From Desulfobulbaceae bacterium (lineage in GTDB: Bacteria > Desulfobacterota > Desulfobulbia > Desulfobulbales > Desulfocapsaceae): DNA of 37,795 nt. The notes below the pieces were generated by a model that saw only the letters and a program-made list of their open reading frames with translations, was not told the origin of the DNA and made no database searches. Location of the stretch: assembly GCA_008933635.1 (NCBI GenBank), contig WBUQ01000026.1:1-37795 (forward strand), written 5' to 3'. Within the stretch, counting starts at the first letter, position 1; each line of letters begins with the position of its first letter. Below are positions 25,431-37,795 of the stretch, piece by piece. The position numbers and the translations under genes are program-made.

Positions 25431-25514
25431 GGAAATATGCGGCCTTTACCTTGTTCCCTGGATGAAGGACGCAACCGCAGACAATTTTCCGTTCCCGCGA
25501 GGAAGCACGCATAC

Positions 25515-26174
25515 ATGACAACCCATTACACCTTTCACCACGAACTGATCAAGCTGAACAAGAAGGTCCTGAAAATGAGCGCAATGGCGGAAGACCGCGT
25601 CCGCAAGGCCGCAGACGTCATCAGGACACGCGACCAGGAACTGATCCAGTGGCTGATCGTCTCCGATTACGAGGTCGACGAGATGGAGATGGAGGTCGAG
25701 GAAGAATGCCTGAAGATCCTCGCCCTGCACCAGCCGGTGGCCAGCGATCTCCGCTTTATCATCATGGTCATCAAGGTCAACAGCGAGATCGAGCGGATCG
25801 CCGATATCGCCGTCAACATCGCCATGCGGGTGCAGGGAATCGCCAACAGCAAATGGACGGTACCCTCGCCCTACGACTACACAGAGATGGCGGACAAGGT
25901 CATCGCCATGCTGAAGATGAGCCTCGACGCCCTCGTCAATCGCGACGTCAAGGCCGCCCGTCAGGTCTTTCTCCTTGACGACGAGATCGACGCCATGCGC
26001 ACCGAGGCCTACCACCGGGTGAAGGATATGATCCGCAGGCATCCCGAGCATCCCGGCCAGCTGATCAACAGCTATCTGATCGGCCGCCACCTCGAACGGA
26101 TCGGCGACCGGGCCACCAATATCGCCGAGGAAGTCATCTACCTGGTCGAGGGCGAGATTGTCCGCTGCCCGTGA
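25515..26174 (+). CDS. phoU: Phosphate signalling protein PhoU
   Basis: 219 residues from the ATG at 25515 (TTHYTFHHELIKLNKKVLKM), preceded by GAGGAAG. Two repeated three-helix PhoU units are visible, each with the metal-binding E/D-xxx-D pattern: VSDYEVDEMEMEVEEECLKILALHQPVASDLRFI and FLLDDEIDAMRTEAYHRV...HLERIGDRATNIAEEVIYL. PhoU connects the Pst transporter to PhoR and dampens signalling when phosphate is ample. It is first in the phoU-pstCASB run and directly downstream of the Pho-box repeats. Confidence 0.95.
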   Translation: MTTHYTFHHELIKLNKKVLKMSAMAEDRVRKAADVIRTRDQELIQWLIVSDYEVDEMEMEVEEECLKILALHQPVASDLRFIIMVIKVNSEIERIADIAVNIAMRVQGIANSKWTVPSPYDYTEMADKVIAMLKMSLDALVNRDVKAARQVFLLDDEIDAMRTEAYHRVKDMIRRHPEHPGQLINSYLIGRHLERIGDRATNIAEEVIYLVEGEIVRCP

Positions 26175-26239
26175 ACGACTCTGATATGCCGACGAACCAC
26201 TACGCCGCCACAACTGCAACCGCTCGCTGACACCACACC

Positions 26240-27628
26240 ATGGACTTCCTGACCCTGATTCTGCTGCTCCTGCCCATCGGCTTCTGTGCCTATTTCCTCG
26301 GGTCACGCAGGGCGGTGGCGGTTGCCGGCGGGAAGGACGGCATCCGCAACCTCCACTCCCTGCCCAGCCATCATGGCGCCTTGACGGCGATCGGTGCCGT
26401 CCTGCCGGCTCTTTTCCTCGCCTGCGTGTGGCAGATGGCCCTGCCGCCGGTGCTGACCGGGATCCTGAAAGACGGCCTTCCCGCCGAGATGCGGCAGCTT
26501 CCCGCCAACCAATTCAGTCTGATCGTCAACGACATCAAAAACGTCGTCGCCGGCAACATGACCCCCGGCGCGGACCAGACGATGATCCTCGAGGCGGCAG
26601 AGCGCTATATCGATCTCCACAACACGGCCGAGATGCTCCTCACCGGACTCGTCCTGCTGGTGGTGGCGGCCTCCTTCCTGTTCGTCCATTCCCGCATCCG
26701 TGTCGATCTGCGGGCCAGGAATGTGGTCGAACGGGTGCTGAAGGCCCTGCTCGTCCTCTGTTCCGCCTTTGCCATCTTCACCACCATCGGCATCGTCCTG
26801 TCGGTGCTGTTCGAGGCCATCCGCTTCTTCAAGATCGTCCCGCTCCATGAATTCCTGTTCGGCCTCGACTGGAGCCCGCAGATGGCCATCCGTGCCGATC
26901 AGACCGGATCCTCCGGGGCCTTCGGCGCCGTACCGGTCTTTGCCGGCACCATGCTGATCGCGCTGATCGCGATGGTTGTCGCCATCCCGATCGGCCTGAT
27001 GTCGGCCATCTATCTTTCCGAGTACGCCAGCGAACGCCTGCGGACCACCGCCAAGCCGCTGCTCGAGATCCTCGCCGGCATCCCGACGGTCGTCTACGGG
27101 TTCTTTGCCGCCCTGACCGTCGCACCGCTGATCCGCGACCTGGGGCTGGCGCTCAACCTGTCGGTATCGTCGGAGAGCGCCCTGGCAGCCGGCCTGGTCA
27201 TGGGCATCATGATCATCCCGTTCGTCTCGTCGCTGTCCGAGGACGTCCTCCATGCCGTGCCCCAGTCCCTCCGCGACGGCTCGCTGGCCCTGGGCGCGAC
27301 CCAGTTCGAAACGGTGAAGAACGTCGTCGTCCCGGCCGCCCTGCCCGGTATTGTCGGCGGCATCCTGCTTGCCGTCTCGCGGGCCATCGGCGAAACGATG
27401 ATCGTGGTCATGGCGGCGGGCCTGTCTGCCAGACTGACCGCCAACCCGTTCGAGGCGGTGACGACGGTTACCGTCCAGATCGTCACCCTGCTGGTCGGCG
27501 ACCAGGAATTCGACAGCCCCAAGACCCTGGCGGCCTTCGCCCTCGGCCTGGTGCTGTTCTTCTTCACCCTCTTCCTCAACTTCGTCGCCCTCCGGGTGGT
27601 CCAGAAATACCGTGAACAATATGAATAG
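26240..27628 (+). CDS. pstC: Phosphate ABC transporter permease PstC
   Basis: 462 residues, much longer than E. coli PstC (~320). The extra ~150 N-terminal residues hold additional membrane spans (LTLILLLLPIGFCAYFLG, GALTAIGAVLPALFLACVW, LLTGLVLLVVAASFLFV) and an external loop. The core permease starts near VLVLCSAFAIFTTIGIVLSVL, with FGAVPVFAGTMLIALIAMVVAIPIGLMSAIYLSEYAS. The ABC-coupling loop reads LRDGSLALGATQFETVKNVVVPAALPGIVGGILLAVSRAIGETM. It forms the membrane channel with PstA. No strong ribosome site is seen before the ATG. It overlaps pstA by 17 bases. Confidence 0.94.
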   Translation: MDFLTLILLLLPIGFCAYFLGSRRAVAVAGGKDGIRNLHSLPSHHGALTAIGAVLPALFLACVWQMALPPVLTGILKDGLPAEMRQLPANQFSLIVNDIKNVVAGNMTPGADQTMILEAAERYIDLHNTAEMLLTGLVLLVVAASFLFVHSRIRVDLRARNVVERVLKALLVLCSAFAIFTTIGIVLSVLFEAIRFFKIVPLHEFLFGLDWSPQMAIRADQTGSSGAFGAVPVFAGTMLIALIAMVVAIPIGLMSAIYLSEYASERLRTTAKPLLEILAGIPTVVYGFFAALTVAPLIRDLGLALNLSVSSESALAAGLVMGIMIIPFVSSLSEDVLHAVPQSLRDGSLALGATQFETVKNVVVPAALPGIVGGILLAVSRAIGETMIVVMAAGLSARLTANPFEAVTTVTVQIVTLLVGDQEFDSPKTLAAFALGLVLFFFTLFLNFVALRVVQKYREQYE

Positions 27629-28922
27629 CGACAACCAAACGACAGCCTGCTGCGCCTCCCCCGGCCTGTCGCTCAGCGAGAGGATCGGCAGGGACCTGCC
27701 ACGCCGCTACCGAAACGAACAACGGTTCCAGCGCCTCGGACTGGCGGCGATCATCATCGCCCTCTCCTTTCTCGTCTTCCTGTTCGGGTCGATCATCAGC
27801 AGCGGGTACAGCGCCTTCCGCCAGACCTATGTCCAGCTGACGGTCACGTTCGACAAAGAGGCCTTTACCAGCGAGAACCTCGCCGCCGCCGATTACGCCG
27901 GCATGGTCAAGGGCTCGTTGCGCACGATGTTCCCGGCAGTCAAAGGCCGCAACGACTTGAAGAATCTCTACAAGATCGTCAGTCCTTCCGCTTCCTTCGC
28001 GCTGCTGGAGATGGTGACCCGCAACACCAAGCTCATCGGCACCACCCAGACCGTCTGGGTGCTCGCCGACGACGACGTCGACATGCTGATCAAGGGACAG
28101 CTGAGCGGTGAGGGAGATGAGAGCAACCGCCGCCTGAAGGACAACCAGCTCGCCTGGATCGATCAGCTGAAGGAACAGGGCAAGATCGAGACCCGTTTCA
28201 ATACCACCTTCTTCACCTCCGGAGATTCCCGCGAGCCGGAACAGGCCGGTATCTGGGGCGCGGTGATGGGTTCGTTCTACTCCCTGCTGATCACCCTGCT
28301 GCTCTCCTTTCCCATCGGCGTCATGGCAGCCATCTACCTCGAGGAGTTCGCCCCGGACAATGTCTGGACCAACATCATCGAGGTCAACATCAACAACCTC
28401 GCCGCGGTGCCGTCGATCATTTTCGGCCTGCTCGGTCTGGCGATCTTCATCAACTTCTTCGGCATGCCGCGTTCGACGCCGGTGGTCGGCGGCCTGGTGC
28501 TGACCCTGATGACCCTGCCGGTCATCATCATAGCCAGCCGCGCCTCGCTGAAATCGGTCCCGCCGTCAATCCGCGAGGCGGCGCTCGGAGTCGGCGCCTC
28601 GCAGATGCAGACGGTGGTCCATCATGTCCTGCCGCTGGCCCTGCCCGGCATGCTGACCGGCACCATCATCGGCATGGCGAGGGCCCTTGGCGATACGGCG
28701 CCGCTCCTGATGATCGGCATGATCGCCTTCATCGTCGACATCCCCGGCGGCTTCACCGACCCGGCCACCGCCCTGCCGGTACAGATCTTCCTCTGGGCCG
28801 ACAGCCCGGAGCGGGCCTTCACCGAGAAGACCTCGGCGGCGATCATCGTCCTGCTGGCCTTTTTGATCTTCATGAACGCCAGTGCGGTCATTCTGCGGAA
28901 GAAATTTGAAATCAAGTGGTAG
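27612..28922 (+). CDS. pstA: Phosphate ABC transporter permease PstA
   Basis: 436 residues, also longer than E. coli PstA (~296). The N-terminal cytoplasmic segment and first membrane span (AAIIIALSFLVFLFGSIISSG) are followed by a ~140-residue external domain not present in E. coli. The permease core begins at GIWGAVMGSFYSLLITLLLSFPIGVMAAIYLEEFAP, and the coupling loop is IREAALGVGASQMQTVVHHVLPLALPGMLTGTIIGMARALGDTAPLL. The GTG at 27612 overlaps pstC by 17 bases; an ATG at 27621 (8-base overlap) is an equally plausible start. Confidence 0.93.
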   Translation: MNNMNSDNQTTACCASPGLSLSERIGRDLPRRYRNEQRFQRLGLAAIIIALSFLVFLFGSIISSGYSAFRQTYVQLTVTFDKEAFTSENLAAADYAGMVKGSLRTMFPAVKGRNDLKNLYKIVSPSASFALLEMVTRNTKLIGTTQTVWVLADDDVDMLIKGQLSGEGDESNRRLKDNQLAWIDQLKEQGKIETRFNTTFFTSGDSREPEQAGIWGAVMGSFYSLLITLLLSFPIGVMAAIYLEEFAPDNVWTNIIEVNINNLAAVPSIIFGLLGLAIFINFFGMPRSTPVVGGLVLTLMTLPVIIIASRASLKSVPPSIREAALGVGASQMQTVVHHVLPLALPGMLTGTIIGMARALGDTAPLLMIGMIAFIVDIPGGFTDPATALPVQIFLWADSPERAFTEKTSAAIIVLLAFLIFMNASAVILRKKFEIKW

Positions 28923-28992
28923 CAGTGAATCGGTTCAACTCTCAACCCGAAAAGAAGTGCCAACACGCAATCCAACACACAAGGAGAACACA

Positions 28993-30033
28993 ATGAACGT
29001 ACGCAGCATCTTTCTGGCCAGCGCCCTGACCATGACCATGATCAGCACCGGTACCGCCATGGCGGCCCGCGACTCGATCTCGATCGTCGGGTCGTCCACC
29101 GTCTACCCGTTCGCCACCGTCGTCGCCGAGCAGTTCGGCAAGGCCTCCAACTTCAAGACCCCGAAAATCGAGTCCACCGGCACTGGCGGCGGCTTCAAGC
29201 TGTTCTGCGGCGGCGTCGGCGTCAACTTCCCGGATATCTCCAACGCCTCGCGGGCGATCAAGGATTCCGAGAAAGAGACCTGCGCCAAGAACGGCGTCAC
29301 CGACATCATCGAATTGAAGATCGGCTACGACGGCATCGCCGTCGCCAATACCAAGACCGCTCCGCAGATGAAGCTGACCCGCAAGGAGATCTTCCTGGCG
29401 CTGGCCAAGGACGTACCGGATCCGGCCAACGACGGCAAGCTGATCCCCAACCCGTACAAGACCTGGAAGGAGATCAACCCTGAACTGCCCGACACCGCCA
29501 TCGAGGTCCTCGGTCCGCCGCCGACCTCCGGCACCCGCGACGCCTTCACCGAGATGGTCCTGGTCGCCGGCGCCGAGGAATTCGACTTCATCAAGAAGAT
29601 GGCCAAGGAAGACAAGGATGGGTTCAAGAAGCTCAGCGAGACCGTTCGTGAAGACGGCGCCTATATCGAGGCCGGCGAGAACGACAACCTGATCGTCCAG
29701 AAGCTGCAGGCCAACCCGAAGGCCCTCGGCATCTTCGGTTTCTCCTTCCTCGACCAGAACGCCGATGCGGTCCAGGGTTCGCTGATCGAGGGCGAGGCCC
29801 CGACCTTCGAGAACATCTCCGCCGGCAAGTATGCCGTATCCCGCCCGCTCTTCATCTACATCAAGAAGGCCCACATCGGCGTGATCCCCGGCATCAAGGA
29901 GTTCATCACCGAGTTCTCCAGCGAAAAGGCCTGGGGTGACGAGGGCTACCTCGCCGACAAGGGAATGATCCCGATGCCGGCCGAGGAACGGAAGAAATAC
30001 GCCGACGATGTCGCCAACCTGAAGACCATGTAA
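28993..30033 (+). CDS. pstS: Phosphate ABC transporter substrate-binding protein PstS
   Basis: 346 residues from the ATG at 28993, preceded by AAGGAG. The signal peptide is about residues 1-24, cleaved after GTAMA. The mature protein begins with the phosphate-binding signature [35 protein letters not shown] and [13 protein letters not shown] supply further ligand-loop residues, and [15 protein letters not shown] is the SGT anion site. It captures phosphate in the periplasm and passes it to PstCA. It lies between pstA and pstB instead of first in the operon. Confidence 0.94.
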
Positions 30034-30047
30034 TACAATGAATGGTA

Positions 30048-30086
30048 CCGGGCGGGCCGCGGGAGCATTGCCCCCGGCCCGCCCGG
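30048..30086 (+). other. Strong GC hairpin between pstS and pstB
   Basis: A 12-bp arm CCGGGCGGGCCG (30048-30059) pairs with 30075-30086, and the stem extends by GGG/CCC after one bulged base. No T tract follows, so it is more likely an mRNA 3'-stabilising or attenuating stem than a full terminator. That would allow more pstS than pstB product. Confidence 0.65.
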
Positions 30087-30131
30087 TTCTCCCCATAAAG
30101 CATACCGGACATTCACAGTAGAAGTAGAGAT

Positions 30132-31022
30132 ATGATTATGGAACTGACATCCCCACAAGTCGGGACGAGCACCCAGTCGACCATGGAAGGATCGGGATTC
30201 GCCGCGTCGCAGCAGGCCGGCGGCCAGTCCGCGCCCCGCCAGACGGTCGGCGACCCGTTTGTCGCCAATCCCCGTATGACCGCCAGGGATGTCGCCGTCT
30301 ACTACGGCGAGAAATGCGCCATCCGCGGCATCAGTATCGATGTCGGATGCAACGAAGTGCTGGCGATGATCGGACCATCCGGCTGCGGCAAGTCGACCTT
30401 TCTGCGCTGTCTCAACCGGATGAACGACACGGTCCCCGGCTGCCGGGTAACCGGTGAGATCAGGCTCGACGAGGAGGACATCTACGCTCCTTCGGTCGAC
30501 GTCGTGCCGCTCAGGGCCCGAGTCGGGATGGTCTTCCAGAAACCCAATCCCTTTCCCAAATCGATATTCGACAACGTCGCCTACGGGCCGAAGATCCATG
30601 GTCTGATCCGCGACAAGGCCGATCTCGAGGAGGTCGTAGAAACTTCCCTGAGCAAGGCCGGGTTGTGGGAAGAGGTGAAGGACCGCCTGCATGAGCCCGG
30701 CACCGGCCTCTCCGGCGGCCAGCAGCAGCGCCTGTGCATCGCGCGGGCCATCGCCGTCAGCCCGGAGGTGATCCTGATGGACGAACCGTGTTCGGCGCTT
30801 GACCCGATCGCCACCGCCAAGATCGAGGAACTGATCGCCGAGCTGCGGACCCAGTACTCGATCGTCATCGTCACCCACGCCATGCAGCAGGCGTCCCGGG
30901 TTTCCCAGCGTACCGCCTACTTCCATCTCGGCGACCTGATCGAGGTCGGCCCCACCGAACGGATTTTCACCAATCCCCGCCATCGGCTGACCGAGGATTA
31001 CATCACCGGACGTTTCGGCTGA
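30132..31022 (+). CDS. pstB: Phosphate ABC transporter ATP-binding protein PstB
   Basis: 296 residues. After an unusual ~50-residue Gln/Ser/Gly-rich N-terminal extension ([20 protein letters not shown]...), the ABC domain begins at [22 protein letters not shown]. Walker A is [10 protein letters not shown]-loop [22 protein letters not shown], signature [16 protein letters not shown], Walker [14 protein letters not shown], and the switch His is in [16 protein letters not shown] is typical of PstB. The extension is longer than usual for the family (~250-260 aa) and may be wrong if translation begins further in, but no better placed start is evident. Confidence 0.95.
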
Positions 31023-32674: not shown

Positions 32675-33567
32675 TCACGAGGTGATCTTCCCCCAGGTGC
32701 CGGCAATCCTCGTCCCGCCTTCTATGATCTTGTGCAGCATCTCCCTGTGTTCACGTGGCAGGTCCAGCTCCTCGGCCGTATCGCTGAGGAGCTGGGCATA
32801 GTTCATGATCCCGTTCAGCTGATTGGTCGTTTCATTGACCGTCTCCGCCAGCAGCGCCATGGCTGCATCACCCGCATCGCTGTCCTGTTGCCGGCCGCGC
32901 TGCCGACGCTGGCCGATCGCCTCGGCCAGCTCGGCCAGCTCGCGACAGGCCGAGGCCGGGGGGATCACATCGGCCTCCTGGTCCTCGGGATCCCGCAGCT
33001 GTTCCGTCATCCGCACAAGCGGCACGAGGGTGCGGCGATAGAGATAGACAAGCCCGAAACTGGCCAGGCTGATGCCCAGACCCATGATGCCGATGATCGT
33101 CTTCTGCAGCGTGACGATGGCGGCCCGGGCCTGGCCGACGACGATCCGGTCATACCGGAGCAGCTGGTCGGCGACCGCCCGCAGCTGTTCCTGCAGCTGC
33201 ACCCCACCGTCGGAACGTTCGCCTCCGTTCAGCATCTTCCGCAGGGAGATGACCACCGCCGCCATGTCGATCCTGCCGATCAGGGCCACGCTCAATTGCG
33301 GAGGGACTGAAGGGTCCTCTTCGAACCTGCTGATATCGGTGTGGAGTTTTTCCAGTTCAGGGATGGCCTGCTCCAGCTTCTCCCGGCTGCCGGCGATCAG
33401 GCCGCTGGTGATCAGCTCCCTGACTGTCGCAAAGCGGAAGATCATCTGGCCGCTGTGACCGGCAATGGCGGCGAAATCACGGTTCAGCTGCTGCTGCCGC
33501 AACAGCAGGGTGACTATCAGGGCCAGAAGGACGGCCATCAGGATGAAGGCGAGCCAGAGGTGGCGTT

Positions 33568-33580
<13 letters not shown>
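32675..33580 (-). CDS. Membrane sensor protein with truncated, His-less kinase dimerisation segment
   Basis: 301 residues from the ATG at 33580, which overlaps the end of ftsH by 13 bases. TM1 is at 8-27, followed by a ~130-residue helical periplasmic part (TM-bounded four-helix sensor type, FRFATVRELITSGLIAGSREKLEQ...). TM2 is at about 162-184 (IIGIMGLGISLASFGLVYLY), then a HAMP-like linker (RRTLVPLVRMTEQL). The C terminus holds ETTNQLNGIMNYAQLL, matching the HisKA helix of AtoS/NtrB-type kinases (HE-NNPLNGI-NYAQLL), but the phospho-acceptor His is Asn and the protein ends about 45 residues later. No ATPase domain is present in any frame downstream. It is either a kinase remnant or a ligand-sensing partner acting without phosphotransfer. 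Confidence 0.75.
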
Positions 33581-35454
<1,874 letters not shown>

Positions 35455-35574: not shown

Positions 35575-35633
35575 CGTCCCCGCTCACTTCCCTATGCCAC
35601 ACTGCCGACCAGTTGCTGCGCCGGCAAAGACAC

Positions 35634-35852
35634 CTATATTCCGAAAACCGCCTTGAACCAGTCGCCGACCAGGGCCAGCGGGCCGCCGCTGGAAACCAGG
35701 CCGCCCACCAGGGATGCAAGGCTCCACAACCCGACAATGACGCCAAACACGGCAACGACGGAAATACTGACTTTCGATACCTCGGTCCCGACATCGCTGG
35801 TGGTCCCTACGCTCGTTTTGGTCCGCTGATCAACCTGAATCGTATTCTTCAT
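35634..35852 (-). CDS. Small single-span membrane protein, 72 aa, unknown family
   Basis: Start at the ATG 35852, with GGAGG seven bases upstream. Residues 1-26 are polar and Thr/Ser-rich (KNTIQVDQRTKTSVGTTSDV). Residues 28-52 form one hydrophobic helix (VSISVVAVFGVIVGLWSLASLVG), followed by a Gly-rich hinge and an amphipathic end LVGDWFKAVFGI. No signal cleavage site or cysteine. I do not recognise it. It is the first gene after the sigma-54 promoter and shares strand with ftsH 180 bases downstream. Size and position would fit a small membrane regulator or an FtsH substrate/adaptor, but that is inference. Confidence 0.75.
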   Translation of the reverse strand: MKNTIQVDQRTKTSVGTTSDVGTEVSKVSISVVAVFGVIVGLWSLASLVGGLVSSGGPLALVGDWFKAVFGI

Positions 35853-35969
35853 CTCACTACCTCCATAACTATTCTTGTTTGCCGGATACTCTCCCCTTTC
35901 GCCGCCTGATTCCAGGTCCTGAGAGAGGATGTTGCCGGCTGCCACAACTCTATCGCACACCTCTCAATA

Positions 35970-35985
35970 TGCATCTGGCATGCCA
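35970..35985 (-). promoter_or_regulatory. Sigma-54 (-24/-12) promoter
   Basis: TGGCATGCCAGATGCA on the minus strand: GG at -24 and GC at -12 with the exact spacing of the consensus TGGCACG-N4-TTGCA, and only two mismatches. The start would be near 35959, giving a leader of about 105 bases before the 72-aa gene. Confidence 0.75.
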
Positions 35986-36104
35986 GAGTCATGAAATATC
36001 TTTGCTCAACGATATTCGCATAGAATAACAATGAGATAGACTTCAATTGCCGCGGGAGACAACACTGCAGGCCAGGGAAGGACGCGCCTTTGTCTTCGGC
36101 AGCC

Positions 36105-36130
36105 GCCGTTGCAACATGTGTTGCAACGGC
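36105..36130. repeat. 26-bp perfect inverted repeat, regulator site
   Basis: Arms of 12 bp (GCCGTTGCAACA / TGTTGCAACGGC) separated by TG. Each arm also contains the self-palindrome GTTGCAAC, 12 bases apart. It lies 120-145 bases upstream of the -24 element, the usual place for a sigma-54 enhancer site. Confidence 0.75.
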
Positions 36131-36146
36131 ATCAATCCTGCCACAG

Positions 36147-36186
36147 TGCAACACAAATGCAACACCTCTGCAACAATGGTGCAACA
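36147..36186. repeat. Four TGCAACA direct repeats, exact 11-bp period
   Basis: TGCAACA at 36147, 36158, 36169 and 36180, each followed by four non-conserved bases. They share the core of the neighbouring inverted repeat and extend it on the side away from the promoter. The last copy also lies in a short hairpin (AATGGTG/CACCATT). Probable half-sites of the adjacent enhancer-binding protein. Confidence 0.75.
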
Positions 36187-36226
36187 CCATTCCGGCGGGG
36201 AGGAGGGAGGAAAGGTCGGGGAGGGA

Positions 36227-37795
36227 TCAGGCGAGGTTGTAACGGCGCATCTTCCGATACAGGGTGCTGCGGTCCACCTGGAGCAGTTTGGCGGCCCGGC
36301 TCTTGTTGCCGCCGCTCTGCAGCAGGGCCTGGCGAACCATTTCCGCCTCGCTGGGTCCGAGCTGGATGCCCGGCGGCCGGGTACCCTCGGTGGGCGCCGC
36401 CTGTGCCGGGGCTGTCAAGGCGGGAACGTCATGGCGTACCCGGAACAGGTCGACCGGCAGGTTTTCCTGCAGCAGCGTCGCCCCGTTGCAGAGGATACAG
36501 GCGCGTTCCATCACGTGGCGCAGTTCCCGGACATTGCCGGGCCAGGAATAGCGCGTCAGGGCATCCATCGCCTGATCGGATATCGTATTGATCTTTCTTC
36601 CGATTTTTTCTCTGAACAGGTCGAGGAAATGGTAGACGAGGAGCGGGATGCACTGCCGGCGCTCCCTGAGCGGAGGCAATGTGATCTCGACCACCTTGAG
36701 CCGGTAGTAGAGATCCTCGCGGAATATTCCCTGGCGCACCTTCTCGCGCAGGTCGACATTGGTGGCGGCGATGACCCGCACATCGACGTGGAGCGGCGTG
36801 TCCTGGCCGACGGGGGTGAAGGTCTTCTCCTGGAGAAAGCGCAGGAGCCGCAGCTGCATGCGGCTTGAGATGTCGCCGATCTCGTCGAGAAAGAGCGTGC
36901 CGTTGTCCGCCTGCAGCAGACGTCCCGGCCGGTTGCGGTCGGCACCGGTGAAGGCTCCCTTGCGATGGCCGAACAGTTCGCTCTCCAGCAGATCCTCGGG
37001 CACGGCGGCGCAATCGACCTTGACCAGCGGCTTGTCACGACGGCGACTTTCCGCATGGAGGGCCTCCGCCGCCAGTTCCTTGCCGGTCCCCGATTCGCCG
37101 GTAATCAGCACTGAGGTGTCGACCTTGCCGACGTTCTCGATCAGTCGGTAGACCTCCTGCATCTCCTCGCTGACGCCGACAAAACCATGGAACTGCCGGC
37201 GCTGGCCGCTGTCGATCTCCGGCACACCGAGGCTGATGTCGCGGGCGACGATCACCGCCCCGTTGAACTCCTCGACCGCATCTTTCAGGGGGGCGGCGGT
37301 CAGGCTTATCATCCGGATGGTGCCGTCCGCCTTCCGACACTCGACCTGGTGTTCCCGCACCACCTGCCCGTCCAGGATGACTTTGCTGGCATCCTGGAGG
37401 CAGGCGATTCCCATCTCCCCCGGCAGCGACTGGAGATCGGTCACCTCCCTGCCATGGATCTCGGCCATCCAGGCCCGGGCGGTATCGTTCAGCTGGACGA
37501 TCCGCATGTCGGCATCGACGGTGATGATCGCATCGCTGACCGAGCTGAAGATGACCTCGAGATAGCGGCGGTACTTCTCGTTCTCGCGCTGCAGCGCCTG
37601 CTTCTCTTTCTCGAGCTGCCAGTGCTTGAGCGCCTGACGGACTATCCGCAGCAGCCCTTCCTTGTTGACCGGTTTCGAAATATACTCGAAGGCCCCATAA
37701 CGGACTGCCTCGGCCGCCGACTTGAGATTGGGGAAGCCGGTGATCATCACCACCGGACACTCGATGCCGGTGCTCTGGATATGCCTGAGCAGGTC
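36227..37795 (-). CDS. Sigma-54-dependent response regulator (REC-PAS-AAA+-Fis), cut by window edge
   Basis: The frame is open to the right edge, so the N terminus and most of the receiver are missing; its end is visible (CPVVMITGFPNLKSAAEAVRYGAFEYISKPV). A PAS domain follows (YLEVIFSSVSDAIITVDADMRIVQLND). The AAA+ domain has Walker A GESGTGKE, the sigma-54 contact loop GAFTGA, Walker B TLFLDEIGDI and RLLRFLQEKTFTPVG. The Fis-type helix-turn-helix is at the C terminus (GGNKSRAAKLLQVDRSTLYRKM). It activates sigma-54 promoters from upstream enhancers; an enhancer array and a -24/-12 promoter lie directly downstream on the same strand, so its likely target is the neighbouring operon. Confidence 0.95.
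   Translation of the reverse strand, partial: DLLRHIQSTGIECPVVMITGFPNLKSAAEAVRYGAFEYISKPVNKEGLLRIVRQALKHWQLEKEKQALQRENEKYRRYLEVIFSSVSDAIITVDADMRIVQLNDTARAWMAEIHGREVTDLQSLPGEMGIACLQDASKVILDGQVVREHQVECRKADGTIRMISLTAAPLKDAVEEFNGAVIVARDISLGVPEIDSGQRRQFHGFVGVSEEMQEVYRLIENVGKVDTSVLITGESGTGKELAAEALHAESRRRDKPLVKVDCAAVPEDLLESELFGHRKGAFTGADRNRPGRLLQADNGTLFLDEIGDISSRMQLRLLRFLQEKTFTPVGQDTPLHVDVRVIAATNVDLREKVRQGIFREDLYYRLKVVEITLPPLRERRQCIPLLVYHFLDLFREKIGRKINTISDQAMDALTRYSWPGNVRELRHVMERACILCNGATLLQENLPVDLFRVRHDVPALTAPAQAAPTEGTRPPGIQLGPSEAEMVRQALLQSGGNKSRAAKLLQVDRSTLYRKMRRYNLA

Follow-up and report, generated by a model that had tools for sequence, protein, structure and literature searches.

A helically phased half-site ladder as the probable enhancer of a sigma-54-linked small-membrane-protein/ftsH operon in Desulfobulbaceae

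We analyzed an array of short repeats in a 37,795-nucleotide stretch of DNA from a Desulfobulbaceae bacterium (assembly GCA_008933635.1, contig WBUQ01000026.1; hereafter the window). The array consists of a perfect palindrome and a ladder of four TGCAACA half-sites and lies in a 374-bp gap between the gene of an NtrC-type regulator (36227-37795) and a 72-codon gene for a small membrane protein (35634-35852). Judged from sequence comparison, it very probably serves as enhancer (upstream activating sequence) to the sigma-54 promoter of an operon containing the small-membrane-protein gene and ftsH, with the adjacent regulator as its probable binder. This enhancer and its putative binder are supported by the location of the array, its conservation, its phasing at 11 bp and the way in which the half-site core matches the recognition helix.

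The four TGCAACA half-sites occupy 36147-36153, 36158-36164, 36169-36175 and 36180-36186 on the forward strand and read TGTTGCA on the promoter strand. The sigma-54-type promoter (-24/-12; TGGCATGCCAGATGCA, 35970-35985, reverse strand) reads into the small gene and ftsH. Since its -24/-12 element lies at 35985-35970, the array is located 120-201 bp upstream, the distance expected of such enhancers (roughly 80-200 bp before a -24/-12 promoter). In the transcribed direction, TGTTGCA is found at -201 (the most promoter-distal copy, 36180-36186), -190, -179 and -168 from the -24 element, and the palindrome follows at -140/-131. This perfect 26-bp palindrome (36105-36130) is an inverted repeat of the form GCCGTTGCAACA-TG-TGTTGCAACGGC and holds two inverted half-sites with centres 12 bp apart, a pair of the kind expected in NtrC-type enhancers. 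With 10.5 bp per helical turn, the four ladder sites fall within 51 degrees of one another, while the palindrome cores are turned by 171 and 223 degrees relative to the first of these sites, on roughly the opposite face of the DNA. A first-pass annotation of the window had described the palindrome and the four repeats at exact 11-bp steps, and these coordinates are confirmed. Its proposal that six copies share one DNA face fails because of the position of the palindrome cores; only the four direct repeats do so. It had also placed the array 120-215 bp upstream of the -24 element, of which the near end stands and the far end has to be corrected to 201.

Chance does not account for the ladder. 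The 374-bp gap was dinucleotide-shuffled 2,000 times and scored for exact 7-mers at any step of 8-25 bp; the longest ladder had two copies (581 shuffles) or one copy (1,419 shuffles), compared with the four observed. No second 11-bp ladder of at least three copies was found in the window, even with up to one mismatch allowed between copies, and chance repeats were rejected on these grounds. The exact pair TGCAACA-N4-TGCAACA occurs in a single place in the organism's whole 4.5-Mb genome. Near-matches to it comprised one site with one mismatch (C121:947), where inspection of the surrounding stretch by eye revealed no ladder, and 16 sites with two mismatches; reading the spaced pair backward as a control gave six matches at the same threshold.

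The array is conserved in relatives. A pattern for the Fis-type helix-turn-helix (HTH) kept 110 distinct regulator ends; some were missed (e.g. L122 and L124) and are excluded from the counts. Class A regulators, which have a recognition helix of the type xDRSTLYRK or -R (one N variant) and TGTTGCA-type ladders, were represented by 59 loci, five of which were dropped for having less than 120 bp before the promoter-like match. Self-similarity at a lag of 11 bp (6 of 7 bases) was detected in 49 of the remaining 54 loci, against a mean of 16.3 and a maximum of 26 loci in 200 shuffles. The matching positions numbered 344 (shuffle mean 35.5, maximum 58); the next-best lag of 22 yielded 144 positions, and no other lag between 7 and 45 approached that of 11. 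The signal was present upstream of the promoter in 42/48 loci, compared with 13/48 in an equal-length stretch downstream. Exact half-sites of class A cluster between -200 and -120, and convergent half-site pairs with 11-bp centres recur (24 pairs at one mismatch). In L051, a locus of the same genus, the half-sites match the positions in the window, with copies at -201, -190, -179 (one mismatch), -168 and -140. Phased half-sites were plain in many, not all, of 23 gaps between regulator and small gene that were inspected over their whole length. Among the first 30 loci, sigma-54-like sites precede the small genes in at least 19, as judged by simple patterns that also served for the six-frame gene assignments and may misplace a promoter. 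In two loci, L069 and L070, a further small-gene cassette lies some 2 kb away from the regulator gene; by eye, it has a sigma-54 site of its own, preceded by CAACA-type 11-bp repeats. The ladder therefore follows the promoter and not the 3' end of the regulator gene. Thus the repeats are present in orthologous intergenic regions, where their absence would have spoken against the first-pass annotation, and they stand before sigma-54-type promoters.

The core of the half-sites covaries with the recognition helix of the adjacent regulator, in one clade only. A paralogous clade of 17 regulators, here called AQ, carries the helix xARSTLYRQ, and GGGACA ladders with spacings of 11, 22, 33 and 44 bp precede the same operon type. 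One AQ locus was dropped by the 120-bp rule given above. Two or more copies of GGGACA were found in 14 of the 16 AQ loci left and in 0/54 class A loci, and two or more copies of TGTTGCA in 0/16 AQ and 31/54 class A loci. Dominant cores (TGTTGCA to GGGACA) split 44:0 in class A and 0:14 in AQ, with ten class A and two AQ loci undecided, though the statistics on this split ignore the relatedness of the loci. In ten genomes both a class A and an AQ gap could be read. There, all ten AQ gaps contain three to six GGGACA and at most one GCAACA-type hexamer, while nine of the ten class A gaps contain GCAACA-type hexamers and none has more than one GGGACA. The split holds within each of these genomes except G105, whose class A gap has neither a promoter nor half-sites. 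Outside the family, the AQ regulator of L234 is accompanied by four GGGACA and that of L233 by none, in only 151 bp of sequence. The position at which AQ regulators exchange Lys for Gln aligns, in our own alignment, with LuxO Lys428, which an alanine-scanning study lists with Ser423, Ile425, Tyr426, Arg427 and Leu429 of helix 3 among the critical residues (PMC11407668). Class B comprises 34 loci, which we defined from a group of 48-55% identity and analyzed apart; its regulators are roughly 50-55% identical to that of the window. These loci have ACACTTGTG-type palindromes, for which lags of 14 and 34 are preferred, while lag 11 did not exceed the shuffle maximum (17/34 loci, maximum 18). Class B regulators also precede ftsH-type genes (L066, L076, L077, L078 and L082). 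The covariation of helix and core points to the adjacent REC-PAS-AAA+-Fis regulator as the protein that probably binds the array, as the first-pass annotation had supposed.

Several observations weigh against this reading, in addition to the relatedness of the compared loci. The AQ regulators fall into one clade, of which they make up 17 of the 20 tips (support 1.0), so the match of helix and core represents one event and its maintenance rather than many switches. Three Desulfobulbus tips inside this clade have altered helices and no small gene alongside, and no two GGGACA were found in the flanking DNA available for them. Within class A, 10/54 loci have no dominant core and 5/54 no lag-11 repeat, and one locus (L108) has a single GGGACA, no GCAACA and no promoter that we could find. 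Finally, among 37 non-AQ loci from other families of the order, a TGTTGC-type hexamer is present in 30, any lag-11 repeat in only 17 and two or more GGGACA in two. With the hexamer thus more widespread than the lag-11 repeat in these families, the half-site seems to predate the strict ladder.

A separate observation concerns two of the Desulfobulbus loci nested in the AQ clade, L206 and L209: their helix reads SRSTLYRWM, and no small gene is present in the flanking DNA available.

The regulator itself is encoded on the reverse strand (36227-37795, REC domain cut by the window edge) and comprises REC, PAS, AAA+ and Fis-type HTH domains. Its HTH (36239-36352, reverse strand) carries the recognition helix VDRSTLYRKM. 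The Pfam matches of the window protein and of the full-length regulator of L051 give the architecture of the NtrC family, with REC, sigma-54 interaction domain and Fis-type HTH. The window fragment, which lacks part of REC, scored 370.7 bits against the NtrC equivalog TIGR01818 (cutoff 558.6) and 349.8 bits against the PEP-CTERM-box response regulator TIGR02915 (cutoff 502.6). A PEP-CTERM/PrsR regulon, our first guess, was rejected as the regulator stays under the latter cutoff. At 58% identity or more, the regulator is present in 20 of 21 genomes selected for the small gene and in 0/5 selected for its absence.

We weighed other explanations of the array. The ladder could resemble a Pho box and serve a winged-helix regulator of the PhoB/OmpR type; Pho boxes are bound by a winged-helix protein near the core promoter. 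Direct repeats of 7 bp with 4-bp spacers indeed reproduce the 11-bp period of Pho-box geometry, genes that we take from their sequences to be phoU- and pst-like share the window (25437-31022), and the AQ core, written as TGTCCC, resembles the Pho-box CTGTCA. Pho boxes should, however, precede phosphate genes, and as the window holds no other 11-bp ladder, none stands before the pst genes. The spaced pair is unique in the genome, unlike what a global Pho regulon would show, and the array lies 120-201 bp from a sigma-54-type promoter and not beside a sigma-70 one, none of which was found in 35600-36300. Moreover, the core shifts between paralogs of one genome together with the adjacent Fis helix, which a single PhoB cannot explain. 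Given the single ladder, the unique pair and a core that tracks the Fis helix, we rejected the Pho box, which we consider very unlikely.

Another Fis-type activator of the cell might bind the array instead, since 12 proteins of its own genome match the regulator at E values of 1e-80 or better. The next-best regulator among them is just 44% identical, though, and from paralog to paralog both core and helix go with the adjacent gene, which leaves this idea a very slim chance. That the repeats form an intrinsic terminator, or an RNA structure in which the regulator transcript ends, is barely credible and was rejected: the array does follow the regulator stop directly, on the regulator's sense strand, and the RNA folds somewhat better than shuffles (z -2.28; 4/200 shuffles fold as well), but no terminator-like site was found in 35600-36300, the palindrome hairpin would have a 2-nt loop, the same kind of repeats stands at the distant second cassettes, and the cores follow the HTH helix.

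How might an enhancer bound by the adjacent regulator work? By analogy with the regulator family, from which phosphorylation, cooperativity and looping are inferred, the histidine kinase encoded upstream of the regulator in relatives would phosphorylate it. The Fis-type helices would read one TGTTGCA half-site in each turn of a single DNA face, together with one inverted pair, and several phosphorylated dimers could collect on them and build the AAA+ ring. DNA looping would then bring the ring to the sigma-54 RNA polymerase at 35970-35985, which it would remodel, switching on the small membrane protein, the FtsH-type protease and a membrane pseudo-kinase, plus a NapC/NirT-like cytochrome in L051 and L059.

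The number of half-sites invites a further speculation, to which we give rather little credence. The ladder might be an assembly template with one half-site per protomer, its helical phase aligning about six receiver-activated protomers for a single AAA+ hexamer, while the inverted pair, being out of phase, would be where the first dimer nucleates assembly. Paralogous modules of one cell would keep this geometry and change the core along with two helix residues, giving parallel, insulated enhancers. Six is the commonest count, both in class A (19/48 loci, mean 5.1) and in AQ (5/14 loci; mean 7.4, counted by a laxer 6-bp core). Six half-sites would match the need of one hexamer, but the counts range from 0 to 10, and the template is therefore a suggestion only.

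The genes of the operon are all encoded on the reverse strand of the window. The small membrane protein (35634-35852) belongs to a family without a Pfam or NCBIfam match, whose gene was found in 32 of 58 genomes searched, often as tandem copies. Its structure model, of low confidence (mean predicted local distance difference test, pLDDT, 69.8; predicted template modelling score, pTM, 0.35), shows one long helix and a short one, and a Foldseek search of the model against the PDB gave no matches at E values up to 10. The ftsH-type membrane protease gene (33568-35454) scored 699.7 bits against TIGR01241 (cutoff 600). Its product ends in a Cys-rich tail, CANCPARGHCLHC (33568-33700), similar to CSVCPAKGHC in L059; the tail is possibly metal-binding or redox-active. 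The organism's genome encodes three FtsH-type proteins at E values of 1e-60 or better (C147, C37 and C184), and over the part that matches, the copy in the window shares 50-55% identity with the other two. Downstream of ftsH lies the gene of a membrane protein with a terminal pseudo-DHp (32675-33580; we chose the ATG of MYSLKRH as start), in which the phospho-accepting His is replaced by Asn (VNETTNQLNGIMNYAQLL) and an ATPase domain is lacking. This pattern was seen at 15 distinct loci of 33 examined (the window, L051, L054, L056, L059, L061, L063-L065 and L067-L072), or 16 with L078, which overlaps L063. The pseudo-DHp protein may pair with the kinase or the regulator, as a decoy or in feedback.

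In relatives, the named ones being sulfate reducers and disproportionators of the Desulfobulbales type (e.g. Desulfopila, Desulforhopalus singaporensis and Desulfocapsa), the gene order is kinase, regulator, array gap, one to six small genes and ftsH. In L051 and others the histidine kinase gene is directly upstream of the regulator; by Pfam, L051 encodes a PAS-HisKA-HATPase kinase, a complete REC-PAS-AAA+-Fis regulator and a NapC/NirT-type cytochrome. This multihaem cytochrome belongs to the operon in L051 and L059. Six tandem small genes each are present in L069 (9534-12722) and L070 (9129-11402), some of them in a duplicated block that brings its own promoter and repeats.

These data point to a module of a small membrane protein and FtsH in sulfur-cycle bacteria that has its own two-component switch. 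Evolution has kept a ladder of one site per turn before the same operon type, with a new core in the same geometry in a sister clade, thereby providing a natural lock-and-key set for how such regulators find their targets. This makes it possible to test which residues of the helix determine the targets of Fis-type activators, and whether assembly of the AAA+ ring depends on half-site number and phase.

No account of the ladder or the operon was found in searches of the open-licence literature of PubMed Central. Sigma-54 activators are commonly depicted with enhancers of one or two inverted sites, and the PilR sites of the Pseudomonas pilA promoter reportedly comprise several TGTC-type elements in tandem ahead of a sigma-54 promoter. 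The rarity of half-site clusters implied by the first-pass annotation does not hold: the NtrC-type activator Nla28 of Myxococcus xanthus uses clusters of three to five tandem imperfect half-sites before sigma-54 promoters, bound by its DNA-binding domain (PMC9765219). Nla28 resembles the window in its tandem clusters and differs in its 8-bp core, CT(C/G)CG(C/G)AG, and in that tandem means up to 25 bp apart; strict helical phase is not mentioned in the available part of that account. The palindrome is of the same type as the inverted half-site pairs of NmpR (PMC11841059) and of other NtrC-type enhancers, whereas the half-sites of the window are mostly direct repeats at 11 bp. The DNA-binding domain of LuxO has a Fis-type HTH like that of the regulator but other targets, and the available part of its description mentions no ladder. 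The Pho box, with 7-bp repeats (CTGTCAT) and 4-bp spacers (PMC3333781), shares the 11-bp period and differs in core. Clustered tandem half-sites are thus already known for sigma-54 activators, as in Nla28; what is unusual here is that they are strictly phased with the helix, that they usually total about six and that their core has been swapped in nature.
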